Assembly (NCBI RefSeq): GCF_001006305.1
Contig: NZ_LBHJ01000012.1
Location: 284,231-348,230, forward strand
Length of the DNA: 64,000 nt
Source of the DNA: Silvibacterium bohemicum
Lineage (GTDB): Bacteria; Acidobacteriota; Terriglobia; Terriglobales; Acidobacteriaceae
Direction of reading: 5' to 3'
In this document: one piece after another, positions 10,362 to 45,388 of the stretch
Layout: each line of letters begins with the position of its first letter
Position numbering within the stretch: the first letter of the stretch is position 1
Program-made: the position numbers and the translations under genes
Notes under the pieces: generated by a model
Database searches by the model: none
The model's input: only the letters and a program-made list of their open reading frames with translations
What the model was told of the DNA's origin: nothing

Positions 10362-11411
10362 TTAAACGCGGTAGCTATCTACCGTGCGCCGAAAACCCTC
10401 CTCGATTGTCGTCGTAGCTCGCCATCCCAGTGATTGAATCTTCTTCACGCTCACCTGTGCTCCCTCGTCGGACCTAGGGACATAGCCTGATGCTGGACGC
10501 TCTTTACGCGCAACATAGATTCCCTCATTCTTGTAAAGCGCAGCGAGCCGGTCAGCGAGGTCCGCGATGCTGCATTCGGCAGCAGAATTGACGACGTTGT
10601 AAGCCTGCCCGACCTCTCCTTTTAGGAGCACGGTAAAAAACGCTGCTGTCGCGTCCGCCAAATAGCAGAACGGTCTTCGTGCGGTCCCGTCACTGAGCAT
10701 AGTAATGGGGCCGCCATTCAAGATATCCCGAACGAAGTCGGCGTAGACGCGACCATCATCCAACCTCATCCCGGGGCCATAGGTGTGACCTGGCCTCACT
10801 ATGCGTGTGGGAACTCCATATTGTCGCGCCCAGGAGGCGCACATGGTTTCGCCCGCTCTTTTGCTCTCGCCGTAACATGAGCGGACATCTATGGGGTCAA
10901 GATATCCCCCTTCATGCTCGGTGAGAGTGGCCGACCTTCCCGTTACCGCTCCGTATACCTCGCCGCTGCTGAAAAATAGAAATCCCCTGCAGACCTTATC
11001 CAGCATGGCGGCATTCAGCAAATGATAGGTGCCGAGCACATTCGCGGAAAATGTTCCTACGGGATCTGCGAGGTAAGCCGCCGGACTTGCATTACTGGCC
11101 GCGTGGATGATGTAGTCGAACCGCGTCGATACACCGAGTGGATCGGAGACATTCTGTACGAGCATCCGGAGGTCGTCGCGGCCGTCGTAATCGGCGAATC
11201 GCTTGATGGCCCCTGCCTCATTGCGAACGAGAGCGGTTACTTTGGCTGGCTTTGAGAGCACAAATTGGTTGAGGAACATGAGTGTCTCGACCATGTAGGC
11301 GGGCAAGAAGCCAGCAGCGCCGGTCACAAGCACGTTCGTATCTTCAAAAGACTGCCAGGGTAGGGGCTCCTGGACAATACCTTTCATGTCGTCTTGAACG
11401 ATGGAATTCAT
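10362..11411 (-). CDS. NAD-dependent sugar epimerase/dehydratase (extended SDR)
   Basis: This 349-residue Rossmann enzyme has a nucleotide-binding loop LVTGAAGFLP at residues 28-37, the strand-4 block HAASNAS, an active-site Ser in FFSSGEVYG, and the YxxxK pair in CYGESKRAG. It acts on a nucleotide-linked sugar in the cytoplasm. UDP-glucuronate decarboxylase, dTDP-glucose dehydratase and 4-epimerase relatives share these motifs. The final Pro in place of Gly in the first loop marks a subfamily often found in surface-sugar loci (recalled, not checked). It is transcribed away from the NeuB-like operon. It could reduce or epimerise a keto sugar of the pathways further downstream. Confidence 0.8.
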   Translation of the reverse strand: MNSIVQDDMKGIVQEPLPWQSFEDTNVLVTGAAGFLPAYMVETLMFLNQFVLSKPAKVTALVRNEAGAIKRFADYDGRDDLRMLVQNVSDPLGVSTRFDYIIHAASNASPAAYLADPVGTFSANVLGTYHLLNAAMLDKVCRGFLFFSSGEVYGAVTGRSATLTEHEGGYLDPIDVRSCYGESKRAGETMCASWARQYGVPTRIVRPGHTYGPGMRLDDGRVYADFVRDILNGGPITMLSDGTARRPFCYLADATAAFFTVLLKGEVGQAYNVVNSAAECSIADLADRLAALYKNEGIYVARKERPASGYVPRSDEGAQVSVKKIQSLGWRATTTIEEGFRRTVDSYRV

Positions 11412-11914: not shown

Positions 11915-12805
11915 ATGCACAACGGCGATTCAGCCATCAGAATTGGAAATAAGCTTGTCGGAGACGGGCAACCTTGTTATGTCGTTGCCGAAATCGGCAT
12001 AAACCACAATGGCGACCTCGATCTGGCCAAGCGGCTCGTCAGCGTTGCCATTGCGGCAGGCTGCGATGCGGTGAAATTTCAGAAGCGTAGCGTGGATGTG
12101 GTCTACACGGCTGAAGAGTTGGCTAAGCCCCGCGAAAATCCATTCGGCCCCACAAATGGGGACTTGAAGTGGGGGTTAGAGTTCGACGAAGAGGATTTTG
12201 CGGAAATCGACGCATTCTGCAAATCCGCGAAGATGCCATGGTTTGTATCTGCGTGGGATGAAGCTTCTGTCGATTTGATTGCGAAGAATTTCGATGTTCC
12301 GTGCTTCAAGATCGCTTCGGCCTCACTGACCGACGACAATCTCTTGCGCCACACCAGGAAGACCGGGAAGCCAATCATTCTATCGACGGGTATGAGCACC
12401 TACGCCGAGATCGACCATGCAGTCGAAGTACTCGGCAAAGAGAATCTCATCGTGATGCACGCGACCAGCACCTATCCTGCCAACTACGATGAGCTGAACC
12501 TCAAGGCCATTCCGACTATCCGTGATCGTTATGGAGTTCCAGTCGGATATTCCGGCCACGAGACGGGCATTCCGAGCAGCGTCGCGGCTGCGGTTCTCGG
12601 AGCCTGCATGATAGAGCGGCATATCACCATGGACCGTGCGATGTGGGGAAGCGATCAGGCTGCATCTTTGGAGCCGAATGGCATTTCTCGACTTGTGCGC
12701 GATATACGTCTCTGTGAGCAGTCGATGGGTGATGGAATCAAGCGTGTTTATGAACGCGAGGTTCCCATCATCAAGAAGTTACGCAGGGTGGGAGCGGCGG
12801 TCTAG
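11915..12805 (+). CDS. NeuB-family sialic acid/ulosonate synthase lacking the SAF domain
   Basis: The 296-residue product is the TIM-barrel part of the N-acetylneuraminate synthase family. It has the N-terminal block VAEIGINHNGDL (residues 24-35) with the catalytic Glu, DAVKFQKR, STGM, GYSGHETG with the conserved His, and ERHITMDRAMWGSDQA near the end. These enzymes condense phosphoenolpyruvate with an aldose or its phosphate to make a 3-deoxy-2-ulosonic acid. Canonical NeuB, LegI and PseI are about 335-350 residues and end in an SAF (antifreeze-like) domain that covers the partner active site; this protein stops before it. It is first in an operon, 3 bases before a KdsC-like phosphatase. A Kdn-9-phosphate synthase is the closest functional analogue; the true substrate is open. 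Confidence 0.85.
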   Translation: MHNGDSAIRIGNKLVGDGQPCYVVAEIGINHNGDLDLAKRLVSVAIAAGCDAVKFQKRSVDVVYTAEELAKPRENPFGPTNGDLKWGLEFDEEDFAEIDAFCKSAKMPWFVSAWDEASVDLIAKNFDVPCFKIASASLTDDNLLRHTRKTGKPIILSTGMSTYAEIDHAVEVLGKENLIVMHATSTYPANYDELNLKAIPTIRDRYGVPVGYSGHETGIPSSVAAAVLGACMIERHITMDRAMWGSDQAASLEPNGISRLVRDIRLCEQSMGDGIKRVYEREVPIIKKLRRVGAAV

Positions 12806-12808
12806 CGA

Positions 12809-13351
12809 ATGGCGCACAAAAATGCCTCGCCTGAGATTCAGGACAGGCTGCGGAGAATTAAGGCCATCGCTTTCGATGTAGATGGTGTGTTGACCGACGG
12901 CGGGATGTGGTGGGGCGCTGATGGCGAAGAGTTCAAGCGCTTCTCGTTCAGCGATATCATGGGGATTTCGCTGGCCCGCCGACACGGATTTACACTTACT
13001 CTTATCTCCGGCGAAGCCAGCCCGCTGGTTGACCGGTACGCCGCAAAGATGAAGATTGCCGATGTAACTAAAGGTTGCCGCGATAAGGCGTCTGCACTTC
13101 GCGAGTTTGCCGGAAGGAACAACCTGGATCTCGCCGAGATTTGTTTCATGGGTGACGACGTCAACGACCTTCCCGCCATGGGCATCTGTGGATTTTCGGC
13201 AGCCCCTGCGGATGCTCGTCCGGCAGTGCTCGAGAAGGTAGACTTTGCCGCGACCAGTCCAGGCGGCCGGGGCGCGGTTCGTGAACTCATCGAGGCGCTC
13301 TTCGCTGCACACGAAACGGATTCGGCGACCGTCTTCGCCAACTCTATTTAG
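12809..13351 (+). CDS. KdsC-like HAD phosphatase
   Basis: This 180-residue HAD-superfamily enzyme has motif I DVDGVLTDG (nucleophile Asp23, acid/base Asp25), a motif II Ser in LISGEAS, a motif III Lys in the KGCRDK region, and motif IV FMGDDVNDLP. The lack of a cap domain and the length match KdsC (Kdo-8-phosphate phosphatase) and the Kdn-9-phosphate phosphatase of Bacteroides. It follows the NeuB-like synthase by 3 bases and precedes the SIS isomerase by 9, so it probably removes the phosphate from the synthase product. It could instead serve Kdo synthesis, but no kdsA or kdsB lies nearby. Confidence 0.85.
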   Translation: MAHKNASPEIQDRLRRIKAIAFDVDGVLTDGGMWWGADGEEFKRFSFSDIMGISLARRHGFTLTLISGEASPLVDRYAAKMKIADVTKGCRDKASALREFAGRNNLDLAEICFMGDDVNDLPAMGICGFSAAPADARPAVLEKVDFAATSPGGRGAVRELIEALFAAHETDSATVFANSI

Positions 13352-13360
13352 AGACAAATC

Positions 13361-13984
13361 TTGAAACACATCATTCACGAACAACTCGGAAAAACGATTG
13401 CGGTACTGGAGAAAGTTCGGGCCGATGACACTCTCCTTAGGGTTGTGTCGCAGGCTGCGGAAGTGACGGCAGAGGCGATGCTCAACGGCCGCAAGCTGAT
13501 GGTGGCCGGTAACGGTGGCAGCGCGGCAGACTCGCAACATTTGGTGGCGGAGTTTGTCAGCCGCTTGGTAAAAGACCGTCCGGCCCTGCGCGCCATCGCT
13601 CTCACAGTAGACTCCTCCATTCTCACAGCGGTCGGAAACGACTACGGCTATGAAAAATGCTTCGAACGCCAGATTGAGGCGCTCGGACAGCAAGGGGATG
13701 TTTTTCTAGGCATCTCCACTTCAGGCAACTCTCCCAATGTGCTGCGTGCGTTGGCGCTCTGCCGGACGCTGGGTGTGGTCACCATCGGTCTCAGCGGCAA
13801 CGGCGGCGGCAAGATGGCCGAGCTCTGCGACTATAACGTCGTCGTCCCTTGCGACGTTACGATGAATATCCAGGAATCCCACCTGGCCCTCGAGCACATC
13901 TTCTGCATGCTGGTGGAGCGCTGCTACTTCGGGCCGGAGTTCTTGGCCCAAACAACGCCGGCTTCCCGAGTAGCGCCAGTTTGA
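13361..13984 (+). CDS. gmhA: Sedoheptulose-7-phosphate isomerase (SIS domain)
   Basis: The 207-residue product starts at a TTG and aligns over its full length with GmhA. NGGSAADSQH (residues 51-60) and ISTSGNSPNV bind the sugar phosphate. Glu64 and His179 fall where the catalytic Glu65 and His180 of E. coli GmhA lie. GmhA converts sedoheptulose 7-phosphate to D-glycero-D-manno-heptose 7-phosphate, the first step of ADP-heptose synthesis. HldE and a GmhB-like phosphatase are also encoded in the window, at 23203 and 42509, so the heptose assignment is consistent. Its place in the NeuB/KdsC-like operon raises the possibility that its product, or a related aldose phosphate, feeds the synthase. 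Confidence 0.85.
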   Translation: MKHIIHEQLGKTIAVLEKVRADDTLLRVVSQAAEVTAEAMLNGRKLMVAGNGGSAADSQHLVAEFVSRLVKDRPALRAIALTVDSSILTAVGNDYGYEKCFERQIEALGQQGDVFLGISTSGNSPNVLRALALCRTLGVVTIGLSGNGGGKMAELCDYNVVVPCDVTMNIQESHLALEHIFCMLVERCYFGPEFLAQTTPASRVAPV

Positions 13985-15256: not shown

Positions 15257-16459
15257 CTACCGCGGCCGAAGGCGATGTTTGGGGATTGCATAAGTGACAA
15301 GGTCCCAGCCCTCTAAAAGGTGAGGACGCAAGAAAAATGCATAATTGTCGCTAAACGACTTTATGAGAAGCGGAATTTTCCAGAGATGATCTTGTAGATG
15401 GTAAGTGCAGATTGCGAGAACGGGTGTGCGCCGCTCGATGATACCCCGTGCACCCGTCAATGCGTCTAGTTCTGAGCCCTCGATGTCCATCTTGATATAA
15501 GTAGGTTGCGTTCCTGCGAGAACTTCGTCGAGAACAACGCAATCGACCGCCATATCGCCCTTTCCGACCCGAGAAGCCTCACTTCCCTCACCGGAAAAAG
15601 TAACAACCCCGGCAGTCGCGCCGACCGCGGCGCGCCGAACGCTGATCGAATCTCGTTTTGGCTGCAGGGAGACATATTCCTGGAGCTTGGCGAAGTTGGC
15701 GGGATCCGGTTCGAATCCGTAGATGTGGGTGAAATTATTCTTGGTCTCTTCCAAAAAGCTTTGAATGCTGTCGCCGTCGAACGCGCCGCAGTCAACGAAA
15801 ACTTCAGAATCGGTCAACGGACAAAGTTCCAGCGGAAAGTAGATAGTGTGCTCTACGGGATCGGGCATGGCATTAAAATCTCCAAGCACACGCCACCGCA
15901 GCTGCGCCAGGTATTCGCCGCGAGAGGCGTCGTCGGCCCAGAGTTGCCCAGCCTGTCGAACCTTATCAGCCTCCTGATGCACCTTGTGAGGGAGGTCGAC
16001 GGCATAGTGAGGCAGGAAAATCTCCGGATGCTTCCAAAATAACGGCTGGAACGTCATTACATGCTGGCAGCCGAGGTCTCGCAGCGCGGCCTCGCGGTCG
16101 GGCATTCGATCGGCGCTCTTGCCTCTCCAGATCGTGACGATGAAGATCGCCTGGTTCCCATGAAGGCGTGCGGCTTCTTGTGGTGAAAGAACCTGTACGC
16201 CATCGACCTTGGTGTTCCAGAGTTGCGAGTTGTTGTCGGTAAAGGCGATTGGCTCCGCGCCTAACCTACGCAGGCCGGCTAGAGTAATGCGGCCCAACTG
16301 TCCAGCGCCGAACAGGACGAGAGGCTTCTTTACAAGCCCCGCTTCCAGATCGTACGCCACGTTTTGCCGGTCGCGTGCGCCCGCTTCGCCTTCAGCGAAC
16401 AGGCCGTCCAAGGCCGCAGTCAATTCGTTTCCGGATAGCCCGATTGTCGCAATTGCCAT
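15257..16459 (-). CDS. FkbM-family methyltransferase with N-terminal Rossmann domain
   Basis: The start at 16459 is chosen because GGAGGTGAACG stands just before it; the longer frame would run into the SDR gene. The 400-residue product has two parts. Residues ~45-150 form a dinucleotide-fold domain (VLFGAGQLGR at 48-57, AFTDNNS). Residues ~210-390 form the FkbM methyltransferase domain with VDCGAFDGDS as SAM motif I, YGFEPDPANF, and KMDIEGSE. FkbM enzymes O-methylate sugars or polyketide hydroxyls. It is last in a five-gene reverse operon of sugar-modifying enzymes, so an O-methylated monosaccharide is the likely product. The function of the front domain is unknown. Confidence 0.82.
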   Translation of the reverse strand: MAIATIGLSGNELTAALDGLFAEGEAGARDRQNVAYDLEAGLVKKPLVLFGAGQLGRITLAGLRRLGAEPIAFTDNNSQLWNTKVDGVQVLSPQEAARLHGNQAIFIVTIWRGKSADRMPDREAALRDLGCQHVMTFQPLFWKHPEIFLPHYAVDLPHKVHQEADKVRQAGQLWADDASRGEYLAQLRWRVLGDFNAMPDPVEHTIYFPLELCPLTDSEVFVDCGAFDGDSIQSFLEETKNNFTHIYGFEPDPANFAKLQEYVSLQPKRDSISVRRAAVGATAGVVTFSGEGSEASRVGKGDMAVDCVVLDEVLAGTQPTYIKMDIEGSELDALTGARGIIERRTPVLAICTYHLQDHLWKIPLLIKSFSDNYAFFLRPHLLEGWDLVTYAIPKHRLRPR

Positions 16460-16503
16460 TCGTTCACCTCCACATCGCAGCCTATAGCTCGATGAAAATT
16501 CGT

Positions 16504-17334
16504 TTACCAACAACTCCGTCCGCCGTCGATGACGAGGTTTGTGCCGGTCATGTACGACGATGCGTCGGAACACAGAAATAAAATTGCGCCCTGATATTCA
16601 TTGGTCGCGGCCATGCGTCCCAGCGGGATCAGGTTGGTCAGCCGCTCAACGAAGTCTTCCGGCTGGCCGTTGGCTACGCCGCCGGGCGAAATAGCATTCA
16701 CACGAACTTTATTCGCGGCCCAATAGGTGGCCAGATAGCGCGTAAGACCCACGAGAGCCGATTTCACGACAGAGTAAGTGACAGGTTTAACCGGTTGCAG
16801 GTGCTCCGGCAAACCGGGCTGTCGATAAATACGCTGATCGGGGCCAATCAGAGCCAGATCGGACGCCACGTTGACGATGACGCCTCCGCCATTCGCTGCC
16901 ATATGGCTTCCCAAAACCTTGCTGCAAAGGAAGGCGCCGGTCAATCCTACTGCGAGGTCGGCCTCCCATTGAGACAGGGGGAAGTTCTCCAGACGAGAAA
17001 AGTCTATCTCTCCGCTGGCCTCCATTTTGGGATTATTGGCTGCGTTGTTGATGAGAATATCGAGACGACCGTAGCGAGAGAGGACCTCATCGCGAAGCGA
17101 TTCGATCTCCTGCTGCTTCGTGATATTGGCGGCGCAGCCAAAGGCTGGAACGCCATAGGTGTCAGCGAGCGCTTGCGCTTTCTCGCGAGCGCGCTGCTCG
17201 TGAATGTCTACCAGCACCGGGATGCCTCCGGCTGCAGCTATCGCGGTGGCGTGCTGCTCGCCGAGCAGACCTGCGCCGCCCGTGATCACCGCGACGCGGC
17301 CAGATAGATCGAAGGGGTTGGTAAGCTTGGTCAT
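16504..17334 (-). CDS. Short-chain dehydrogenase/reductase
   Basis: This classical SDR of 276 residues has ITGGAGLLGEQH (17-28) as the NAD(P) loop, NNAAN at 97-101, and the catalytic pair Tyr187-x3-Lys191 in TYSVVKSALVGL. The C-terminus (GTNLVIDGGRSCW) is the usual SDR ending. The N-terminal pattern LSGRVAVITGGAGLLG resembles the PtmA-type SDRs of flagellin nonulosonate loci in Campylobacter (similarity recalled, not computed). It lies 13 bases after the Gfo/Idh gene in the reverse operon and probably reduces a keto-sugar. Confidence 0.88.
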   Translation of the reverse strand: MTKLTNPFDLSGRVAVITGGAGLLGEQHATAIAAAGGIPVLVDIHEQRAREKAQALADTYGVPAFGCAANITKQQEIESLRDEVLSRYGRLDILINNAANNPKMEASGEIDFSRLENFPLSQWEADLAVGLTGAFLCSKVLGSHMAANGGGVIVNVASDLALIGPDQRIYRQPGLPEHLQPVKPVTYSVVKSALVGLTRYLATYWAANKVRVNAISPGGVANGQPEDFVERLTNLIPLGRMAATNEYQGAILFLCSDASSYMTGTNLVIDGGRSCW

Positions 17335-17347
17335 ACCTGATCAATTC

Positions 17348-18385
17348 TCACGACAGTTCCACCAATTGCCCACTTGCGGCCGATTCCTTAGCGGCCAAGG
17401 CGAGACGCAGACTCTTCATGCCTTCATTCAGATCTACCAGTGGTTTCTTCCTGGTCTTCACGCAGTCCAGGAAATGTTCGGTTTCGCGAATAAAGAGGAG
17501 ATTGCGGTCGAAATCCTTGTAACTGACTTGATCTTCCGTGCCGTTTTCGAAATTGTGCAGAGTAACGGAAAGCTCGGGGAAGTTGATAACGGCTCTGCCC
17601 ATGTCCCCCACCACTTCGCACTGGCGATATGCCGGACGTTGAAGATAATCCTGTTGTAAGTGCACAGGCAGCGGTCTTCCATCATGCTCGCATTGCATCA
17701 GTGTACTGGCTATATCTTCGACGTCGATTTCCAAATTGCTCCAGTGGCCGCCGATCGAGAACAAGCGCTTCGCCATGCCAAACAAAGCATAAAGATAATC
17801 GAATTCGTGGATCTGCGAGAGCACTACGCCGCCGCCCAGGCTTGCTCGCGCGGCATAGCCGGTCCGGTAATCCTCGTAACGATGCCAGTTTGGCAGATAT
17901 TCCCCTACTATGGAGCGGACCCCGAGCAGATTCCCTAACAGCCCCTGCTGCAGGATCTCCTGCATGCGGAGAAAACATGGATGGAAGCGGAGTTGGTAGC
18001 CGACCATTGCGATCCGGCCATGCTTTTCGATTGCAGCCTGTAGCTCAGGCAATCCCGCGAGGTCGTTCGATAAAGGCTTTTCCACGAAGATGTCGCAGCC
18101 GGCTTCGATACAAGCCAGCGCCACCGGGACATGCATACTGCTGGGGTTGCAAATGAAGGCGATGTCCGGTCTCTCCGCCAGTGCAGATCCGAGGTCTCCG
18201 AAAACGCGGAGTCCGTATTCGTTCTCGACATCGAGCTCGTCGTTTTGTTGCAAGGTCGGAGTGATGACTGACGTCAGTCTGCGAACGCGGTACGCGATGA
18301 TCTCAATATCATTGCCAAGCAAGGATCGCAGATTACGAAGATGACGTTGTCCGATGCCGCCCAGCCCGATCATCAATATCTTCAT
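17348..18385 (-). CDS. Gfo/Idh/MocA-family sugar dehydrogenase
   Basis: The 345-residue product starts MKILMIGLGGIGQRHLRNL, the dinucleotide-binding loop. It carries the family's EKP motif as VEKPLSND (Glu102-Lys103-Pro104), which holds the catalytic lysine and cofactor. The C-terminal alpha/beta domain (from ~residue 125) binds the sugar. These enzymes oxidise or reduce sugars, inositols or nucleotide sugars. Its start codon overlaps the stop of the TIM-barrel gene by 4 bases (ATGA), so the two are translated together and probably act on successive intermediates. Confidence 0.88.
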   Translation of the reverse strand: MKILMIGLGGIGQRHLRNLRSLLGNDIEIIAYRVRRLTSVITPTLQQNDELDVENEYGLRVFGDLGSALAERPDIAFICNPSSMHVPVALACIEAGCDIFVEKPLSNDLAGLPELQAAIEKHGRIAMVGYQLRFHPCFLRMQEILQQGLLGNLLGVRSIVGEYLPNWHRYEDYRTGYAARASLGGGVVLSQIHEFDYLYALFGMAKRLFSIGGHWSNLEIDVEDIASTLMQCEHDGRPLPVHLQQDYLQRPAYRQCEVVGDMGRAVINFPELSVTLHNFENGTEDQVSYKDFDRNLLFIRETEHFLDCVKTRKKPLVDLNEGMKSLRLALAAKESAASGQLVELS

Positions 18386-19233
18386 CGGTTCTTTCCCCGG
18401 CCAAAACCGGCTTCCTGCAATTGGCTCCTAACCAGTTCGCGATTTTTCGCGATCCAGTCAAGCTCCATGCCCGGTTCGTCCCGGGCAATCTGCATCACGA
18501 AGTCGCCCTTGTATGCTGTGCGCGACAAATTAGAAAGCAAAACCGGGATGTTCGCGTTTCCGGATCCAAGCGGGACCGTCCCCCCGCCGCGAATCCTGTC
18601 TTTGATGTGGACACTGCCGATGCGCTCCCCATATGAGGCAATTTCCTCCGAAGCGTCGTACCCCAGGGAAGCGCTATTCCCCGAGTCGTAGTTCACTTTC
18701 AAGAAGGGGTGCGGGAGCCTGGCAAGCAACAAACTAAATTGCTCCGGACCAAGCGAAGTTTCCAGGTGCAGCTCGATGCCTGCCTTCTCCGCGGCCATCA
18801 AGGCTCCGGATAATATCCGGACTACCTCGTCCTGGTCTGTCTCGTTTTCAATCCTGGAGTTATCGACAAAGGGAAGCACCATACGTTGGATGCCAGCCAG
18901 TTTGCATCGCTCCAAGAGCCACAGGAGTTTGTCGATTCGCACTTCCAGTTCCGCGGGGCTCACGCGGAGAAAGGGGTGCTCCATGAAGTAGTCTGCGCAG
19001 ACCGAGACCACGGCAATGCTATGCTTCTCGCTCAACTGCGCCATTTCGGCCAAACCGGCATCGGTGTTAAGTGGATTGCCATCTTCACCGACAGAGTCGT
19101 ATATCCACTCGATTGCGTCGATGCCCGCCCGCTGAGCGAGAGAAAACTCTTCGCGCCAGCGGCTGAGTGGAAAGCTTTGAAAATGGCCATCGTAGGGCGG
19201 TAGAAGTCTGCCCTGCATTACCGCAAGTCTCAT
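18382..19233 (-). CDS. Xylose-isomerase-like TIM-barrel sugar isomerase/epimerase
   Basis: At 283 residues this matches the AP_endonuc_2/xylose-isomerase-like TIM-barrel family. Metal-binding carboxylates are visible in DAIEWIYD (strand 2), ELHLETS (strand 5-6 region), VNYDSGN (strand 6-7) and VHIKDR. Family members include IolE, IolI, hydroxypyruvate isomerase and tagatose/psicose 3-epimerases, so the reaction is probably isomerisation, epimerisation or dehydration of a keto-sugar. It sits 5 bases after the ThDP enzyme and overlaps the Gfo/Idh gene by 4 bases. Confidence 0.83.
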   Translation of the reverse strand: MRLAVMQGRLLPPYDGHFQSFPLSRWREEFSLAQRAGIDAIEWIYDSVGEDGNPLNTDAGLAEMAQLSEKHSIAVVSVCADYFMEHPFLRVSPAELEVRIDKLLWLLERCKLAGIQRMVLPFVDNSRIENETDQDEVVRILSGALMAAEKAGIELHLETSLGPEQFSLLLARLPHPFLKVNYDSGNSASLGYDASEEIASYGERIGSVHIKDRIRGGGTVPLGSGNANIPVLLSNLSRTAYKGDFVMQIARDEPGMELDWIAKNRELVRSQLQEAGFGRGKNR

Positions 19234-19238
19234 CCTCC

Positions 19239-21053
19239 CTAGTCCTCCTCGACCGGGATCAACATATTCGAGAGGAATTCCTCTCGCGGAAGAAAGGGAA
19301 ACAAGTCTTCGAGCGGCTTGGAGACGAAGGAGCCATCGGGGCGCTGAACTGAAGAAAGCCGCGGGCCGCGGAACTCATCCGGAAGGACATGCGTGTCGCA
19401 AACCATCGGGCCGCCGCGGGCAAGCACCCTGCGCAAATCGGCGCGCAAATCCGACTGATCGCGAATAATGTCCGTCTTCAGGCCATAGGCCTGTGCGACC
19501 TTGCCGATGTCCGGCAGGCTCTGCCCGGTCTCCCGGTTACAGCCAATACGCGGGGAGCCGAAGAAGGCGGTCTGTGAAATACGAATGGAGGCATAGCCAT
19601 CGTTGTTCAGCACGAAGAAGGTGATAGGCAACTGCAGCCGCGACACCGTCTCCAGCTCCTGAATGTTGAACTGGAATCCTCCATCGCCATCCACGCATAC
19701 GACGGGTCGGCGGCCATTGGCCATGCAGACTCCAATCGACGCAGCGATACCAAAGCCCATTGCTCCTAGGGCTGTGGTGTGAAAGACTCGCTGTCCGGGC
19801 TTCACGCGCAGAGCCAGGAGGAAGAGTTCAATTGCACTCCCCGAGCTTCCCGAGACGATCGGAGTGTTGTCCGGAAGTACATCCTGGATTGCTTCGGCGA
19901 GGTGATACATGCTCACCGGCCCTTCCGGCTTCCGGTGTTCGACCTGGATAACCGGATAGCGGGTCTTCCAATCGGCACAGCGCTGCTTCCAGACGGAGCG
20001 GTCCTTTGTTTGAATCTCTGACTTGCGGCGAAGCAAGGCGCGCATGAACTCGCCTGCGTCAGCCTGCACTTTGGTCTGGACCGAATCCCCCATCTTGCCC
20101 AACTCGGTGGGATCGATATCCACCATGACCTTGTGGGCAGCGCGCGCAAGACGTTCCGGAGAATAGCCGGTGATGACGCGGTCCAATCGAGCGCCGAGGG
20201 TCAGCAGGAAGTCGGAGTTTTGAATGGCGAAGTTCGCCCCCCGCGGCGCGAGCGAGCCTGGCCGCCCCACAAACAGGGGATGATCGTCTGAGATCAGATC
20301 AATTGCCAGCCATGTTGCTTCGACAGGGACATCGAGCAGCTCGACGAGCTCGAGAAATTCCTTCTCCGCACGGGCTAAGCGAATGCCATTGCCGGCCAGG
20401 AGCATCGGCCGCTCGGAGGCGTTCAACGCCTGGATCGTTTCTCCGACCAGTGACTCCAGATCAACTGTAGACCCAGTCGCGGACTCGGCAGGATTAAAAC
20501 CCGGCTGTTGCTCCGGTTCAATGGGCATGGCCTGCACGTCGAGTGGAATGTCGATCCAGACCGGACCTGGACGTCCCGACTTAGCAAGGTACAGGGCCTT
20601 CTCCATGTGATAGCGGATGGACTCTGGATCGTCTATTGTCACGGCGTATTTCGATAGAGGCCGCACGATCGAGACGATATCGACTTCCTGCATACCGACC
20701 TGCCGAACGCCGAGTGGCACCCCGTCCGAAGTAAACATCCGGTCTGCGCGTTTGACTTGGCCAGAAAGAAAAAGACAGGGAGTCGAATCCAGCCATGCAC
20801 CAGCCAGGCCAGTGATGGCGTTCGTGGCGCCGGGGCCTGTGGTGACCAGAGCAACGCCCAAGTGGTTGGTGGCCTTGGAATAGTTTTCGGCCGCGATAGC
20901 GCTGGCTTGCTCGTGGAGATTGCAAACAAATTCAAGCTCAGCACAGCGGCTCAAGGAATCGTTCAGGTGCATGGCGCCGCCGCCAGGCACTAGAAATACA
21001 TGTTTCACGCCGCTGTCCGCGATAGCGCGGAAAACGTAGTCCGAAAGCTTCAT
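19239..21053 (-). CDS. Thiamine-diphosphate enzyme, acetolactate-synthase-like
   Basis: The 604-residue protein has the three-domain ThDP fold. The activating Glu48 lies in NLHEQASAIAA. A central domain around residues 200-340 resembles the FAD-type domain of acetolactate synthase. The ThDP-Mg motif runs from GDGG at 456 to NN at 483-484. It heads the reverse operon with a TIM-barrel enzyme, a Gfo/Idh dehydrogenase, an SDR and a methyltransferase, and no ilvN or ilvC is nearby, so a housekeeping role in valine synthesis is unlikely. Candidate roles are transfer of a two-carbon acetyl unit from pyruvate to a keto-sugar, as done by YerE in yersiniose synthesis, or IolD-like ring cleavage. YerE uses the CDP-dideoxy sugar that rfbFGH in this window would lead to. 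Confidence 0.83.
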   Translation of the reverse strand: MKLSDYVFRAIADSGVKHVFLVPGGGAMHLNDSLSRCAELEFVCNLHEQASAIAAENYSKATNHLGVALVTTGPGATNAITGLAGAWLDSTPCLFLSGQVKRADRMFTSDGVPLGVRQVGMQEVDIVSIVRPLSKYAVTIDDPESIRYHMEKALYLAKSGRPGPVWIDIPLDVQAMPIEPEQQPGFNPAESATGSTVDLESLVGETIQALNASERPMLLAGNGIRLARAEKEFLELVELLDVPVEATWLAIDLISDDHPLFVGRPGSLAPRGANFAIQNSDFLLTLGARLDRVITGYSPERLARAAHKVMVDIDPTELGKMGDSVQTKVQADAGEFMRALLRRKSEIQTKDRSVWKQRCADWKTRYPVIQVEHRKPEGPVSMYHLAEAIQDVLPDNTPIVSGSSGSAIELFLLALRVKPGQRVFHTTALGAMGFGIAASIGVCMANGRRPVVCVDGDGGFQFNIQELETVSRLQLPITFFVLNNDGYASIRISQTAFFGSPRIGCNRETGQSLPDIGKVAQAYGLKTDIIRDQSDLRADLRRVLARGGPMVCDTHVLPDEFRGPRLSSVQRPDGSFVSKPLEDLFPFLPREEFLSNMLIPVEED

Positions 21054-22993: not shown

Positions 22994-23202
22994 CTTTCTA
23001 AGCTGACCGCACAATTTCGATCGAGCAGCTGTCCGACGTCCCCGACTTTGTTCCGACACCGGCCTATATAATAAGCCGTGAAGTTGCTGCACCCGCGTAA
23101 AAGGCCAATGACCTCGTCTGCCCTATCTTCTACAGTATTTGGTCTCAGATTTGAGAATTATCTCAATCCGGATTGCTGCCATCTTCGACAGGTGAATCAC
23201 GA

Positions 23203-24729
23203 GTGATTTCGAAGGTCAATAACTCAGGCGTGCACCGTTCCGAGGGGCGTAGCGGTATCGTTCATCTTCACGAAATCGTTCGCCTGCTGGAGAGCGGCTG
23301 GGCCGACAAGCATATTCTCGTGGTTGGCGATGTGATGCTGGACAAGTACATCCACGGCAGCGTAGACCGCATTTCCCCGGAAGCACCGGTCCCTATCGTC
23401 CAGGCTACGCGGCGGAGTGAACAACCAGGAGGCGCGGCCAATGTTGCGATGAACGTCGCCGGACTGGGAGCGCGTGCCACGGTAGTCGGCTTCGCTGGAG
23501 ATGATGAAGACGGTTCCATCCTCGCTGCCATGCTGAAGGCCAGCGGAGTCGAAGCTCATCTCGTCACGGTTCCCGGTAAGCCAACTACGTCGAAGCTGAG
23601 GATCCTCGGCGGCAGCCAGCAGATGATGCGGCTGGACATCGAAACCGCAACTCCCAGACCGCCGGAGGCGTATACGGCTTTGCTCGAAGGATTGATTTCC
23701 TTACTCCCCGATGTCGATGGCGTCATCCTCTCTGACTACGCCAAGGGCACGCTTACGGCGGAGAATTGCCGGAGCATCATTGCTGCGGCTCGCCAGGCTG
23801 AAGTCCCCGTTATGGTCGATCCAAAAGGCCGCGATTTCCTGCGCTATCGCGGCGCGACAACCATCAGTCCCAATCTGAAGGAGCTGGCTCTCGTCACCGG
23901 ACATACAGTCGGCGAGGTGAAAGATGTTTTAGAGAGCGGGCGATCCCTTGTGGCGGAACTTGGCCTTGAGTACCTCACCGTCACCCTGGGAGAGAGAGGC
24001 ATCGCAATCCTTGACGAGGAGGGCGAATTTGACGCTCCCGCGATCGCTCGCCAGGTCTTCGACGTCTCCGGAGCCGGGGACACCGTCATTGCGACCATGG
24101 CTGTCGCCACCGCCTGCGGGGTTACGACAGAAGACGCAGCACGTCTTGCCAACGTCGCCGCCGGTATCGTCGTCGGCAAGCTTGGCACGGTCCCGATCGC
24201 GCGTCATGAGCTGGTCGCCGCGCTAACCGAGTTTTCCGGCACTGAAACACCAGAAAAAATCCTCGATCTGGATCGCCTGCTCGTGCGTGTCGCGGAATGG
24301 CGCGCATCCGGTCACACTGTCGTCTTCACCAACGGCTGCTTCGATATCCTGCATGTCGGTCATATCGCGCTGCTGGAGGATTGCCGCCGGTTCGGCACCA
24401 AGGTCATCGTTGGTATCAATAGCGATGCCTCGGTCTCGGGACTCAAAGGCCCGAGCCGTCCCATCGTCGGGGAGCGCGAGCGTGCTCGCATTCTCGCTGC
24501 CCTTGCGGCAACCGACGCGGTCGCAATCTTCGACGCGCCCACCCCTATCGACCTGATTGTCGCCCTTCGTCCGGATGCTCTCGTCAAGGGTGGCGACTAC
24601 ACCGAAGAATCGGTGGTTGGGGCGCACGAAGTCAAAAGCTGGGGTGGACGTGTTGTGATCGTACCCACCGTGGAAGGCTTCAGCACAACGAATATTGTGC
24701 GCAAGCTGGCCCACTCCGCAGACCGCTGA
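23203..24729 (+). CDS. hldE: Bifunctional heptose-7-phosphate kinase/heptose-1-phosphate adenylyltransferase
   Basis: The GTG at 23203 is preferred because an AGGTG lies 8 bases upstream; the frame is open from a TTG at 23173. The first ~330 residues are a PfkB-type kinase (VVGDVMLDKYI, PGGAANVAMN, and catalytic Asp in GAGDTVIA). The last ~140 are a nucleotidyltransferase with FTNGCFDILHVGH and SGLKGPSRP. This is the two-domain HldE (RfaE) that phosphorylates D-glycero-D-manno-heptose 7-phosphate and, after GmhB acts, adds AMP to make ADP-heptose. It stands apart from gmhA and gmhB but within the same locus. The full-length domain match makes this one of the firmest calls in the window. Confidence 0.93.
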   Translation: MISKVNNSGVHRSEGRSGIVHLHEIVRLLESGWADKHILVVGDVMLDKYIHGSVDRISPEAPVPIVQATRRSEQPGGAANVAMNVAGLGARATVVGFAGDDEDGSILAAMLKASGVEAHLVTVPGKPTTSKLRILGGSQQMMRLDIETATPRPPEAYTALLEGLISLLPDVDGVILSDYAKGTLTAENCRSIIAAARQAEVPVMVDPKGRDFLRYRGATTISPNLKELALVTGHTVGEVKDVLESGRSLVAELGLEYLTVTLGERGIAILDEEGEFDAPAIARQVFDVSGAGDTVIATMAVATACGVTTEDAARLANVAAGIVVGKLGTVPIARHELVAALTEFSGTETPEKILDLDRLLVRVAEWRASGHTVVFTNGCFDILHVGHIALLEDCRRFGTKVIVGINSDASVSGLKGPSRPIVGERERARILAALAATDAVAIFDAPTPIDLIVALRPDALVKGGDYTEESVVGAHEVKSWGGRVVIVPTVEGFSTTNIVRKLAHSADR

Positions 24730-33225: not shown

Positions 33226-34302
33226 TTGGTTCGCAAAACTGCCCTTATCGTTAAATTCGGCCAGATCGGCGATGTCATCATGGCCATCCCCGCTGCATAC
33301 GCTCTTCACGAGCGAGGCTTCGAAATCGACTGGGTTTGCGGCCGGTCGGTTCTGCCGCTTCTCGCCTGCTACTCGTGGATACGGCCGATTCTTGCGGATG
33401 ACCGGGCGATCTTCCGCGGCAGCACACTGAAGCGAGTCCGGGCGATTGCAGCTTTATGGGGCGCAATCGCCCGGAAGCGATATGATCTCTGCGCCACACT
33501 CTATTACGATCGCCGCTACCATCTACTGACACTGCCTGTCCGCGCCCGCAGCAAACGGATGCTTTCAAGGCAGTCCAGGGAAACGACACTTCTTCCAGGC
33601 CGCCATCACAGCGACGAATTCGTCCGCTTTGTGTTGGAGAGGGAAGACGGCTGCCAGGAGGGGAGTGCGACACCAGTCTGCCCGGATCGCCTTCCGCCCT
33701 CTCCTTTAACACCCAAAACCGCCCCGCGCCGCATCGCGATCGTTCCCGGCGCAGCGAGCAACTTGCTTCATCGCCAGGTATTGGGCATGGAGCCGGAGAG
33801 TCTGCGCCGCTGGCCAGTGGAGAGCTACAGAGTTCTAGCGCAGCGTCTAGTCGACCGCGGTTGGGAGGTCGTTCTTCTTGGCGGTCCGGACGAAAGCTGG
33901 GTCAAGCCGCATTTTCTTGGAATTGCGATGACCGACTGCATTGGCAAACTCACTCTCCCCGAAGTTGTGAGTGTTTGCGGCACCTGCGACGCAGTCGTTT
34001 CCAACGATACCGGCCCCCTCCACCTGGCCGGTCTGAGCGAGACTCCGCTGGTGGGCATCTTCGGGCCTACCGATCCTTCGACGCGCATTCCCAGGCGCGC
34101 GCTCTCCGTGGGAATCTGGGGAGGGCAGGGTTTTGCCTGCAGGCCATGTTACGACGGTGCAAATTTCGCTCCCTGTCAATTCAATGGATGCATGCACCAA
34201 GTGACTCCATCGAGGGTACTTCGGGAGCTGGACCGCCTCCTGGACGCCAGTTCGCGAGGGCTGCCAAACTCTTGGCGGATCGCGTTTCCGGATGAAAATT
34301 GA
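33226..34302 (+). CDS. Family 9 glycosyltransferase (heptosyltransferase-like)
   Basis: The start is a TTG preceded by CAGGAGAAG. The 358-residue GT-B protein opens with ALIVKFGQIGDVIMAIPAAY, the family's signature for the acceptor domain. It has VVLLGGPDE and the donor-site block SNDTGPLHLAGLSE with GIFGPTDPS. GT9 includes the ADP-heptose:LPS heptosyltransferases WaaC, WaaF and WaaQ. With gmhA, hldE and a gmhB-like gene in the same locus, transfer of heptose to the core or repeat unit is likely. A cysteine-rich tail (QGFACRPCYDG ... CQFNGCMH) is shared with many GT9 members. Confidence 0.88.
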   Translation: MVRKTALIVKFGQIGDVIMAIPAAYALHERGFEIDWVCGRSVLPLLACYSWIRPILADDRAIFRGSTLKRVRAIAALWGAIARKRYDLCATLYYDRRYHLLTLPVRARSKRMLSRQSRETTLLPGRHHSDEFVRFVLEREDGCQEGSATPVCPDRLPPSPLTPKTAPRRIAIVPGAASNLLHRQVLGMEPESLRRWPVESYRVLAQRLVDRGWEVVLLGGPDESWVKPHFLGIAMTDCIGKLTLPEVVSVCGTCDAVVSNDTGPLHLAGLSETPLVGIFGPTDPSTRIPRRALSVGIWGGQGFACRPCYDGANFAPCQFNGCMHQVTPSRVLRELDRLLDASSRGLPNSWRIAFPDEN

Positions 34303-38836: not shown

Positions 38837-39059
38837 TTTAGGGGGTTGAGGCGCAGAATAACCGCTCGATGCATAAATCGCAATTGATCCCGCGAAGACT
38901 CGTAAGGGCCATGCTATGATCATCTCCCCCCAACTTATCTTGAGAGCTATGCTCCGATTTGTTCAGCAGCCGAGATGTGAGCTAGTCGATGGTTATCGGT
39001 TTTCATACTCGAGGCAGAACACTCGAAAGCAAGTTCCCCCTATGCTTGGAGCTGCTTCA

Positions 39060-42508: not shown

Positions 42509-43135
42509 TTAACTTTCGGTAATCGGCGGCTCCTGCTCGAGATTACTTGCAGAACGATTTGGAGCCAGGTATTTAAACACTGCATCGCGGAGTGAATCAG
42601 AAGTAACCGTGGCGATGGCGGCGGCGCGGTCGACGCCGGGCTTCTGGACGCTTGGATCTCCGTGGATGAAGATGGTCATCATGCCTAGCCGAAGCCCGGC
42701 TTCGATATCGGAAATGGAATCCCCAACTACTACGCTGTTCGAGCCGGAGGCTTCTGGGAATTTTTTGAATGCCTGCAAAAACATCCCTGGACCTGGCTTA
42801 CGGCAGTTGCATTGATCCCGGTCGTGTGGGCAATAGTAGATGGCATCGATTCGCGCGCCGCGAGAGGCTAAATGCTCGAGCAGTTGACGATGAAGTTCCG
42901 CCAGATCCTGCTCGGTATAGTGGCGAAGAGAGATTCCCCGTTGATTTGTCACCACAATCACTTTGTGGCCTGTCTTGTTTAGCCGGGCAATTGCTTCTTC
43001 AACGCCGGGAAGGATATCGAAGTACTTCCAGTTCGAAACATATTGTCCTTCGGGCGGCTTCCGATTGATGACTCCATCTCGATCAAGAAATACATACTCG
43101 ATGTGTTGGAAGTCTTCAAAAGATTTCTGTGCCAT
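42509..43135 (-). CDS. gmhB: HAD-family heptose bisphosphate phosphatase
   Basis: The 208-residue product has the DxD motif in FLDRDGVINRKP (Asp18, Asp20), VVTNQRGI as motif II, a zinc-binding C-x-H...C-x-C set (Cys102, His104, Cys109, Cys111), RKPGPGM with the conserved Lys, and VGDSISDIEAG as motif IV. It matches GmhB, which removes the C7 phosphate from heptose 1,7-bisphosphate between the two HldE steps. The spacing between the zinc ligands is short, as in the histidinol-phosphatase half of HisB, so that activity is the main alternative. Its neighbours are sugar genes, not his genes. Confidence 0.83.
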   Translation of the reverse strand: MAQKSFEDFQHIEYVFLDRDGVINRKPPEGQYVSNWKYFDILPGVEEAIARLNKTGHKVIVVTNQRGISLRHYTEQDLAELHRQLLEHLASRGARIDAIYYCPHDRDQCNCRKPGPGMFLQAFKKFPEASGSNSVVVGDSISDIEAGLRLGMMTIFIHGDPSVQKPGVDRAAAIATVTSDSLRDAVFKYLAPNRSASNLEQEPPITES

Positions 43136-43409: not shown

Positions 43410-44489
43410 TCACTGTGCCCGGTTCTCGTATGCAGAGATCTGCTTCAATGTGAATTCTTGCATGGGCTGGCCGTCGTTCCAGGCTCGATACCAGGCTACG
43501 GTCCATTCCAGAGCTGTTTCTATTCTCAGGCGCGGCTGCCAGTGTAGTTCGGCGCGAGCCTTGCTCGAGTCCAATCTCAAATACCTGGCTTCATGTGCGC
43601 CTGGATCGTCGGGTTGCGTCCACGCGGAGCCCGGTCCCCACAGCTCGGCTACCTTGGTGGCTACCCGGTCTACAGGCCACGCATCGTCATCCGATGGGCC
43701 GAGATTGAATGAGGTCGCGAATTCCGGCTTTGCCTCAAGCAGTCTTTCTGCAAGAAGAATGTAGCCGTGCAGCGGCTCCAGCACGTGCTGCCATGGCCGA
43801 ATGGAGGCCGGCCGCCGGATCAGTACCGGTTGATTCGTGCGGAAGCCCTCAATTAAATCGGGAATCAGCCGGTCTCTCGACCAGTCTCCGCCGCCGATTA
43901 CATTGCCGGCTCGAGCCGTGGCCAAGGCTACGTGATGCTGGTCGAGAGCGTCTACCGGGAAGAACGAACTCCGGTATGCCGCACAGACCATTTCCGCGCA
44001 GGCCTTGCTCGATGAGTATGGATCATATCCGCCGAGCGCATCGGTCTCACGATAGGGCCAGACCCACTCTCTGTTCTCATAACACTTGTCCGTGGTGATC
44101 GAAACAACCGCTCGTATGCTGGGCGTCTTGCGAACGGCCTCCAGCATGGTCGCCGTACCCATCACGTTGGTTGCGTAGGTCGTCAGAGGATCGGAATACG
44201 ATTCGCGGACCAGCGGCTGAGCGGCCAGATGAAAGACAACCTCGGGAGCAAATTCCGCCATTGACTCTTCCAGGTGGGCTTTATCCAAAACGTTGCCCCG
44301 GATGTCGTCGACCAGCTTGCCAACTTCGCTTGCATAAAACATGCTTGGTTGAGCCAAAGGCTCAAGCGCATATCCACGAACCTGCGCACCCAGTTTTGTC
44401 AGCCAGAGAGATAGCCACCCACCCTTAAATCCAGTATGTCCCGTTAAAAAGACGCGTCGTCCGCGCCATGTATTTACCACGTTTTCCAA
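43410..44489 (-). CDS. rfbG: CDP-glucose 4,6-dehydratase
   Basis: The 359-residue extended SDR has VFLTGHTGFKGGWLSLWL as the NAD loop, HLAAQPLVRESY, STDKCYENREW, and the YxxxK pair in YDPYSSSKACAEM. The HTGFKG loop and length match RfbG/DdhB, which converts CDP-glucose to CDP-4-keto-6-deoxyglucose. It overlaps the end of rfbF by 16 bases, and rfbH starts divergently 900 bases away. The three genes give the shared trunk of CDP-3,6-dideoxyhexose synthesis (abequose, paratose, tyvelose, ascarylose, yersiniose). Confidence 0.93.
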   Translation of the reverse strand: MENVVNTWRGRRVFLTGHTGFKGGWLSLWLTKLGAQVRGYALEPLAQPSMFYASEVGKLVDDIRGNVLDKAHLEESMAEFAPEVVFHLAAQPLVRESYSDPLTTYATNVMGTATMLEAVRKTPSIRAVVSITTDKCYENREWVWPYRETDALGGYDPYSSSKACAEMVCAAYRSSFFPVDALDQHHVALATARAGNVIGGGDWSRDRLIPDLIEGFRTNQPVLIRRPASIRPWQHVLEPLHGYILLAERLLEAKPEFATSFNLGPSDDDAWPVDRVATKVAELWGPGSAWTQPDDPGAHEARYLRLDSSKARAELHWQPRLRIETALEWTVAWYRAWNDGQPMQEFTLKQISAYENRAQ

Positions 44490-45244
44490 GGTGCCTTTCC
44501 GCTAGCCCAGAGCTCGTCGAGCCGCTGCTTATCCCGAAGTGTATCCATCGCCTGCCAGAAGCCTTCATGATAGAAAGCCTGCACCTCTTGCTGCCGGGTC
44601 AGGTTTTCAATTGGTTCGCGTTCAAACATCCAGGCGTCATTCTGAATTTCATCGAAGATTGCAGGAGACAGGACAAAGAATCCACCGTTGATCCAACCGC
44701 CTTCACCTTTTGGTTTTTCCTGGAAGGCATAGACATTGGTTCCGTCTAAGCCCAGGCCGCCGAAGCGTGCTGTGGGCTGGACTGCAGTCAACGTAACCTT
44801 CTTCCCGTGGGAGCGATGAAAAGCGATGCTAGCGCCGATATCGATGTCGCTGAGTCCATCACCGTAGGTCATGCAGAAGGCGTCCTCATCGGAGACGTAG
44901 TTTGCGACTCGTTTTAAGCGTCCTGCCGTGCCAGTGTTGTCGCCGGTATCCACCAGGGTGACATTCCATGGCTCCGCGACACTCTGATGCACGGTCATCT
45001 TGTTTTCCTGCATGTTGAAGGTGACATCGGAGGTATGAAGGAAGTAATTCGCGAAGTACTCCTTGATGATGTAGCCCTTGTACCCGCAGCAGATCACGAA
45101 GTCGTTGATGCCGTGCTGAGAATAGATTTTAAGAATGTGCCACAGGATAGGCCGCGCGCCAATTTCGACCATTGGCTTGGGGCGCAGGGTGGTCTCTTCG
45201 CTGAGGCGGGTACCAAGCCCTCCCGCCAGAATTACCGCTTTCAT
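44474..45244 (-). CDS. rfbF: Glucose-1-phosphate cytidylyltransferase
   Basis: At 256 residues it matches RfbF/DdhA throughout. It has the nucleotide-binding loop [18 protein letters not shown] with the [10 protein letters not shown] block, [11 protein letters not shown] as the metal site, and GWINGGFFV in the sugar site. It makes CDP-glucose from CTP and glucose 1-phosphate. It is the first gene of the reverse rfbFG operon and shares a 144-base divergent control region with rfbH. Confidence 0.94.
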
Positions 45245-45388
45245 TTCCGCTCCTTGCAGTATCTTATCGCGTCAGCAATCAGGCGTATTGGTGGAAGTGG
45301 AGATTCATGGGAGGGGGATGGCCGTCGCCGCGCCTGCCAGGGACACTACGCTGCGTCGTCCCGGTATAGTAGTCTACTGCAAGGTTCC

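Follow-up and report, generated by a model that had tools for sequence, protein, structure and literature searches.

A short NeuB-family synthase as a possible source of donor for a YerE-like enzyme of branched-chain sugar synthesis in Silvibacterium bohemicum

Genes at the locus

The window analysed here is a stretch of 64,000 nucleotides from the 6.46 Mb genome of Silvibacterium bohemicum (contig NZ_LBHJ01000012.1, positions 284,231 to 348,230), and its subject is a trio of genes at positions 11915-13984, all on the + strand with intergenic gaps of 3 and 9 bases, which encode a short NeuB-family synthase condensing phosphoenolpyruvate (PEP), a KdsC-type HAD phosphatase and a GmhA-type SIS isomerase (Table 1). 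A preliminary description, made from the sequence alone, had taken these genes for a possible Kdo-like route to an ulosonic acid; open reading frame (ORF) and Pfam results agree with it on the genes and their spacing. It overlooked, however, the main partner of the NeuB-HAD pair, a YerE-like thiamine diphosphate (ThDP) enzyme encoded in the same window. The genes, their families, their conserved order and co-occurrence, and the absence of any dedicated NeuA were observed directly, and from them we infer the substrates, the donor role and the product of a pathway in which, as we consider probable, the NeuB and HAD genes make the acyl donor for a branched-chain cytidine diphosphate (CDP)-sugar formed by the YerE-like enzyme.

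Pfam finds in the 296-residue synthase the NeuB domain alone, without the C-terminal SAF domain. In NCBIfam it stays below the equivalog cut-offs of both N-acetylneuraminate synthase (TIGR03569, 257.2 against 399.65) and pseudaminic acid synthase (PseI; TIGR03586, 196.3 against 340.25). Residues E26, K54, K132, S157, S213, H215, E234, H236 and D247, presumably catalytic by analogy with N. meningitidis NeuB, are invariant across 14 relatives. The phosphatase passes the TIGR01670 subfamily model and does not reach the KdsC equivalog cut-off, its top single model being Kdn-9-P phosphatase (NF058599) at 118.8 against a cut-off of 180. The isomerase scores 186.1 on the GmhA equivalog TIGR00441 (cut-off 209.45), where the GmhAs of nine further loci score 173.5-193.4, and it matches solved GmhA structures at 1e-57, a match only suggestive of activity on sedoheptulose 7-phosphate.

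The short NeuB occurs together with a ThDP enzyme

We scored the short NeuB and the ThDP enzyme in 300 genomes of the same family, each at 58% identity or more (the remaining NeuB matches reach 42% identity or less). The short NeuB was found in 39 genomes, the ThDP enzyme in 37 and both in 36, which places the ThDP enzyme in 36/39 genomes with the short NeuB against 1/261 of the others (Fisher p 7e-42, kinship ignored). The short NeuB stands without the ThDP enzyme in G224 and G172, where NeuB is at the end of its contig and the HAD gene is truncated, and in G032.

Neighbourhoods were counted from tblastn maps of 36 related loci, of 80 named loci, which are the best 80 of a longer list and hence not a random sample, and of 24 control loci with long NeuBs from the same family. 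Within 10 kb of NeuB, the 36 fetched related loci contain the ThDP enzyme in 32 cases, a HAD gene in 35 and GmhA in 13, and none of the three is found in the 24 controls, so that the association claimed for the trio goes beyond chance. Leaving out three named duplicates (still included in the counts for the 36 and the 80) gives 113 distinct short-NeuB loci, of which 43 have the ThDP enzyme only as partner within 10 kb, 33 have NeuA only, none has both and 37 have neither. HAD was scored in 42 of the 43 ThDP loci, and 35 of these 42 keep the order NeuB, HAD, ThDP, contiguous and on one strand. Exceptions to contiguity are the window, with its ThDP gene 6.4 kb away, and its nearest complete relative, L042, with 5.2 kb, in which the ThDP gene through DdhC fits within about 11.4 kb. 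Records with the module come from Acidobacteriota, Verrucomicrobia, Planctomycetota, Holophagaceae and Peptococcaceae.

The ThDP enzyme and its proposed acceptor

Among solved structures, the closest to the ThDP enzyme of the window is 8rph (420.8 bits), followed by 5ahk (264.6 bits), presumably PpYerE, and by acetohydroxyacid synthases (AHAS) with 254.3 bits and less. PMC12188165 identifies 8rph as JanthE, a YerE-like enzyme. We rejected a role as housekeeping acetolactate synthase, as the protein reaches 357 bits against a model cut-off of 538 and a separate IlvB elsewhere in the genome scores 713. The enzyme thus has a YerE-like protein as its closest characterised relative and is not the housekeeping synthase, and the window also encodes, all scoring over their cut-offs, DdhA, DdhB and DdhC (43410-46756), the genes for the known acceptor of YerE, CDP-4-keto-3,6-dideoxyglucose. 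DdhC is present in 35/37 genomes with the ThDP enzyme, in 22/24 with the more distant relative described below and in 32/239 others; the two ThDP genomes lacking it, G052 and G087, are 70-73% complete. No relative of the enzyme was matched on plasmids at 1e-80. The host genome encodes two further acetolactate-synthase-like ThDP enzymes that score below the cut-off (C13:249580-251214 and C24:539-2137; L214 and L215).

According to PMC12247030, pyruvate supplies the acetaldehyde unit that YerE attaches to CDP-4-keto-3,6-dideoxyglucose, ErwE, which prefers 4-hydroxy-2-oxo acids, makes no use of pyruvate, and MMAR_2332 is an enzyme of caryophyllose synthesis. Caryophyllose is given in PMC5706390 as 3,6-dideoxy-4-C-[1,3,4,5-tetrahydroxyhexyl]-xylo-hexopyranose. 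Position 2 of its side chain is deoxy, which would match the outcome of decarboxylating a 3-deoxy-2-ulosonic acid.

A second NeuB lineage pairs with a related ThDP enzyme

A quick NeuB tree, with support from the Shimodaira-Hasegawa-like approximate likelihood ratio test (SH-aLRT) only, separates the short NeuBs from four long ones. One starred clade of 48 rows holds every ThDP-linked row except L076 and also includes a single NeuA row (L098) and six rows with the label none; the distribution of ThDP versus NeuA on the tree needs 3 changes.

A ThDP relative of 39-49% identity (E value 1e-120 or better) was found in 24 further genomes, none of which has the short NeuB. Loci around this relative were fetched from 18 of the 24, and in 17 of the 18 another NeuB-family gene adjoins the ThDP gene or lies one small gene away; DdhC is present in 15. 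These NeuBs share with that of the window 27-33% identity over 224-272 residues (n=14) or 35-39% over 131-155 residues (n=3), and, of four examined by domain, two have SAF, one has a cupin domain and one has neither. A small gene stands between NeuB and the ThDP gene in 10 of the loci: in seven it belongs to one cluster, both tested members of which are HAD_2 phosphatases, and in three to a cluster with a HAD-like DVDD motif at the start of one member and no Pfam match in the two tested. In each of two deep NeuB lineages, a NeuB has thus come to lie next to a YerE-like enzyme and DdhC, and the simplest reason for this would be that the NeuB product is the donor of the ThDP enzyme. In three sequences inspected from this second subfamily (L216-L232), whose partners are the ThDP relative and DdhABC, the usual GSD around D247 is absent.

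The genome lacks a dedicated CMP-synthetase

The statement of the preliminary description that no synthetase for cytidine monophosphate (CMP)-sugars lies in the window holds for the whole genome. PF02348 gave two matches there, a strong one of 198 bits (KdsB class, on another contig) and a weak one of 28 bits, with no dedicated NeuA among them, so that a neuA or kdsB homologue elsewhere, which had been thought worth looking for, amounts to the KdsB-class gene and the set of a CMP-ulosonic acid pathway is incomplete. We surveyed NeuA in 49 genomes, comprising 37 of the 39 with short NeuB (all but G224 and G172) and 12 with long NeuB only. All 19 genomes that encode a long NeuB (7 of them with the short one as well) have a NeuA-class match of at least 50 bits beyond KdsB, compared with 0/30 of those with the short NeuB only. 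Three of these 30 (G052, G087 and G212) have no strong cytidylyltransferase match at all, and in G016 the single strong match is a fragment starting at a contig end, which was counted as KdsB.

The cytidine triphosphate (CTP) motif PARxGSK occurs upstream of HAD in 18 rows outside the ThDP class and in 0/45 ThDP rows. In one ThDP locus (L074) the HAD carries an N-terminal part of NeuA size in which this motif is absent and CTP_transf_3 has no match, and the Azospirillum locus L087 is in the same state; these parts may be read as decayed remnants of a CMP step that was lost. As the genome has no dedicated CMP-synthetase, the acid is more likely to be a ThDP donor than a CMP-sugar.

GmhA and the choice of aldose phosphate

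Besides the related loci given above, 17 of the 80 named loci have a GmhA gene no more than 10 kb from the short NeuB, so that GmhA near NeuB recurs in other genomes (13/36 and 17/80). At the thresholds applied, neither HldE nor GmhB was matched within that distance in any of these 116 loci. On the NeuB tree, GmhA is found within 5 kb in 12/19 rows of the grade that excludes the ThDP clade and the Gastranaerophilales-type group, and in 0/21 rows of a mostly NeuA-HAD group. Thirteen GmhA-bearing loci were inspected and six contain a HAD-GmhA fusion without internal stops, five with HAD first and one with GmhA first; the HAD half scores as KdsC type, with no GmhB model among its matches, and five of the six loci have a NeuA-class gene nearby. 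The fusion ORFs come from several phyla (L104 12691-13839, L110 14199-15506, L113 10327-11985, L114 14434-15522, L120 7532-9088 and L103 4113-5312).

GmhA-type matches occur in 207/300 genomes of the family and in 35/39 of those with short NeuB. G236 (100% complete) and G132 (98%) have NeuB, HAD and the ThDP enzyme and lack GmhA, their SIS genes amounting to two long ones in G236 and none in G132. The window gene is the sole GmhA-type match found in its genome and falls in a 15-row clade that holds two genes near HldE (L194 and L195). A single NeuB-dedicated GmhA clade was rejected, as the NeuB-near GmhAs spread over several lineages, and so was GmhA as the key partner of NeuB, given its presence near NeuB in just 13/36 related loci and its absence from the two genomes named. 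A purely ADP-heptose role for GmhA is countered by the fusions and by the 24 controls that lack it, which keep a link to NeuB plausible.

Since GmhA recurs near the short NeuB and HAD-GmhA fusions exist, a Kdo-like logic (KdsD, KdsA, KdsC) working with heptose 7-phosphate is a reasonable hypothesis, and to this extent the preliminary description keeps its ground; the strongest partner of NeuB-HAD, however, is not GmhA but the ThDP enzyme with DdhABC. The ten-carbon ulosonate that it derived from the heptose 7-phosphate of GmhA draws support from the same recurrence and fusions and is weakened by the genomes without GmhA and by the HldE and GmhB-like genes of the window. We place mannose 6-phosphate slightly ahead of heptose 7-phosphate as the acceptor of NeuB.

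Proposed pathway and alternative explanations

In the pathway that we propose, NeuB would join PEP and an aldose phosphate into a 3-deoxy-2-ulosonate phosphate, from which the KdsC-type HAD would remove the phosphate to leave a free 2-oxo acid, with no CMP-sugar being formed. DdhA, DdhB and DdhC would make the acceptor CDP-4-keto-3,6-dideoxyglucose, to whose C4 the YerE-like ThDP enzyme, after decarboxylating the acid, would add the polyhydroxy acyl group. Reduction, for which the product of the gene at 10362-11411 is a candidate, would then yield a CDP-3,6-dideoxy-4-C-(polyhydroxyalkyl)hexose destined for a glycan of the cell surface. The sugar would resemble caryophyllose and be longer, with C14 if built from mannose 6-phosphate (by way of Kdn) and C15 if built from the heptose 7-phosphate of GmhA. 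This last variant, in which a ten-carbon 3-deoxy-ulosonic acid would furnish a nine-carbon acyl donor and a fifteen-carbon C-branched nucleotide sugar, we hold to be rather unlikely.

Several observations weigh against the donor role. YerE-like donors reported so far reach C8, and a C9 or C10 acid would exceed them. In the window itself the ThDP gene is not only 6.4 kb off but on the opposite strand, with DdhABC about 31 kb off, and 37/113 loci have neither ThDP enzyme nor NeuA within 10 kb. G265 encodes the ThDP enzyme but no short NeuB, the NeuB of G032 is accompanied only by a 33% ThDP relative, and at the locus L233 NeuB is missing next to the ThDP gene. The co-occurrence counts take no account of kinship among the 300 genomes, and the mutual exclusion of ThDP enzyme and NeuA comes down to few events, with 3 independent pairs on starred branches, which is not significant.

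NeuB-HAD and the ThDP enzyme might instead serve two separate sugars of one glycan, which would be the reason why their genes lie together. NeuB and HAD would then make a Kdn-like ulosonic acid for itself, with KdsB or some unrecognised enzyme activating it, and the ThDP enzyme would build a yersiniose-like sugar from pyruvate or a different 2-oxo acid. A KdsB-class enzyme is indeed present, pyruvate is the donor of the known YerE (PMC12247030), and the pairing with NeuA-HAD in 33/113 loci indicates that the short-NeuB family is able to make CMP-sugars elsewhere. We nevertheless find this explanation improbable in view of the conserved gene order in 35/42 loci, the near-perfect co-occurrence, the absence of NeuA from 30/30 short-only genomes and the pairing of a second NeuB subfamily with a related ThDP enzyme. 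The pathway of the preliminary description, in which the GmhA heptose 7-phosphate would give, through NeuB and HAD, a ten-carbon ulosonic acid that is activated with CMP by KdsB or an unknown enzyme and enters a glycan, appears very improbable. It would account for the order and spacing of the trio, for the six loci with HAD-GmhA fusions, of which five have a NeuA-class gene near, and for the different frequencies of GmhA in the 19-row grade and the 21-row NeuA-HAD group; it fits poorly with the missing dedicated NeuA, with G236 and G132, and with the HldE and GmhB-like genes of the window, and the term 'deculosonic' had no match in the literature searched.

The remaining alternative concerns GmhA only and is compatible with the donor role of the NeuB product: GmhA would serve ADP-heptose synthesis with HldE and GmhB, its position after HAD would be a convenience of operon layout, and NeuB would use mannose 6-phosphate. 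The HldE, GmhB-like and GT9 genes of the window would suffice on their own to explain GmhA (the HldE domain models are over their cut-offs, the GmhB-like gene has 154 against 178), the gene is the only one of its kind in the genome, its clade includes HldE-near genes, and G236 and G132 have the module but no GmhA. The recurrence of GmhA near the short NeuB and not in the controls, the absence of HldE and GmhB from the vicinity of NeuB in those 116 loci and the HAD-GmhA fusions point the other way, and we give this alternative somewhat less than an even chance.

Relation to known systems

The pathways of yersiniose, erwiniose and caryophyllose (YpYerE, ErwE, MMAR_2332, JanthE) have in common with the window DdhABC and a YerE-like ThDP enzyme, as well as the proposed bond between a 2-oxo acid and C4 of CDP-4-keto-3,6-dideoxyglucose; unlike in them, the donor in the window would come from a NeuB-family synthase and a KdsC-type phosphatase. 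A SIS isomerase, a PEP-condensing synthase and a KdsC-type phosphatase also form part of the Kdo pathway (KdsD, KdsA, KdsC, KdsB), whereas the window has a NeuB-family synthase and a GmhA-type isomerase, with no cytidylyltransferase in the set. With the Kdn pathway (Kdn-9-P synthase and phosphatase, NeuA-HAD fusions) the window shares a NeuB-type synthase and a KdsC-type HAD, but it has a ThDP enzyme and DdhABC in place of NeuA. Genes of all three kinds in the ADP-heptose pathway (GmhA, HldE, GmhB) are in the window, the GmhB-like one below its model cut-off; here, in contrast to that arrangement, GmhA is grouped with NeuB-HAD and away from HldE.

If the proposal is right, a sialic-acid-type synthase would have a second metabolic use, as maker of acyl donors for C-branched sugars; an origin would be suggested for caryophyllose-like side chains, ThDP biocatalysis would gain large, densely hydroxylated donors, and sugar structures could be predicted from genomes of Acidobacteriota and the other groups that bear the module. 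The fifteen-carbon variant would imply a new sugar class, with ulosonic acids as donors for C-C bonds instead of CMP-sugars. Searches that were partly unspecific, and that had the ErwE study, a thesis on longer branched sugars and a survey of over 200 YerE-like enzymes outside their scope, found no literature linking NeuB to a YerE-type enzyme or describing NeuB as a donor maker, and the link may have been noticed before.

Other genes of the window

Besides the genes discussed above, the window contains further candidates for the system (Table 1). Those for the TIM-barrel, Gfo/Idh and short-chain dehydrogenase (SDR) proteins recur near the short NeuB in the NeuA class and the ThDP class alike, and because they are found in both they probably act on the acid or its precursor.

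Table 1. Genes of the window connected with the proposed system
Feature	Position	Strand	Evidence
NAD-dependent epimerase/dehydratase-type gene	10362..11411	-	Pfam; in many loci, comparable genes next to NeuB or the ThDP gene
Short NeuB-family PEP-condensing synthase, 296 aa, SAF-less	11915..12805	+	PF03102 257 bits vs cut-off 22.1
KdsC-type HAD phosphatase, 180 aa	12809..13351	+	TIGR01670 116.0 vs cut-off 106.95; DVDG and GDDVND motifs
GmhA-type SIS isomerase, 207 aa, TTG start	13361..13984	+	PF13580 (SIS_2) 85 bits
FkbM-type methyltransferase, start uncertain, overlaps SDR gene	15257..16573	-	Pfam; near short NeuB in 19/36 related loci
Short-chain dehydrogenase (SDR)	16504..17334	-	Pfam; recurs near short NeuB
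Gfo/Idh oxidoreductase	17348..18385	-	Pfam; recurs near short NeuB
TIM-barrel sugar isomerase/epimerase (AP_endonuc_2)	18382..19233	-	Pfam; recurs near short NeuB
YerE-like ThDP enzyme, proposed user of the NeuB/HAD product as donor	19239..21053	-	JanthE 8rph 421 bits
HldE, heptose kinase and adenylyltransferase	23173..24729	+	TIGR02198 366.1 vs 345; TIGR02199 184.1 vs 181.5; whole-length model 518.9 vs 521
GT9 family, heptosyltransferase-like	33226..34302	+	PF01075 77 bits
GmhB-like heptose bisphosphate phosphatase	42509..43135	-	NF006506 154 vs 178, below cut-off
DdhB, CDP-glucose 4,6-dehydratase	43410..44489	-	TIGR02622 494.8 vs 278.45
DdhA, glucose-1-phosphate cytidylyltransferase	44474..45244	-	TIGR02623 443.7 vs 300.25
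DdhC / RfbH, 3-dehydratase	45395..46756	+	NF011936 739.1 vs 423

Two further genes lie within the polysaccharide island: one at 34476-36020 for an HpnJ-like radical SAM protein, which at 341 bits stays below the model cut-off of 578, and one at 38916-42431 for a protein of 1171 residues with FG-GAP repeats and immunoglobulin (Ig)-like domains.

Other short-NeuB neighbourhoods

Short NeuB relatives paired with NeuA-HAD come from Streptomyces and Chloroflexi records and from Nonomuraea. In Nonomuraea gerenzanensis (L088, 8678-10870) a single ORF of 730 residues has NeuA and NeuB domains flanking a KdsC-type HAD. On a plasmid of Methylomagnum ishizawai (L085, 7886-13498), a split transketolase, another type of ThDP enzyme, is followed by a class III aminotransferase, an SDR and then the short NeuB and HAD. 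In Gastranaerophilales records (L111, L115, L116, L123, L125, L127, L130, L133, L137, L138, L141, L143, L149, L153 and similar ones), neither NeuA nor the ThDP enzyme lies within 10 kb, and NeuB-HAD comes after a gene for a small membrane protein that, by reading alone, appears FliO-like.

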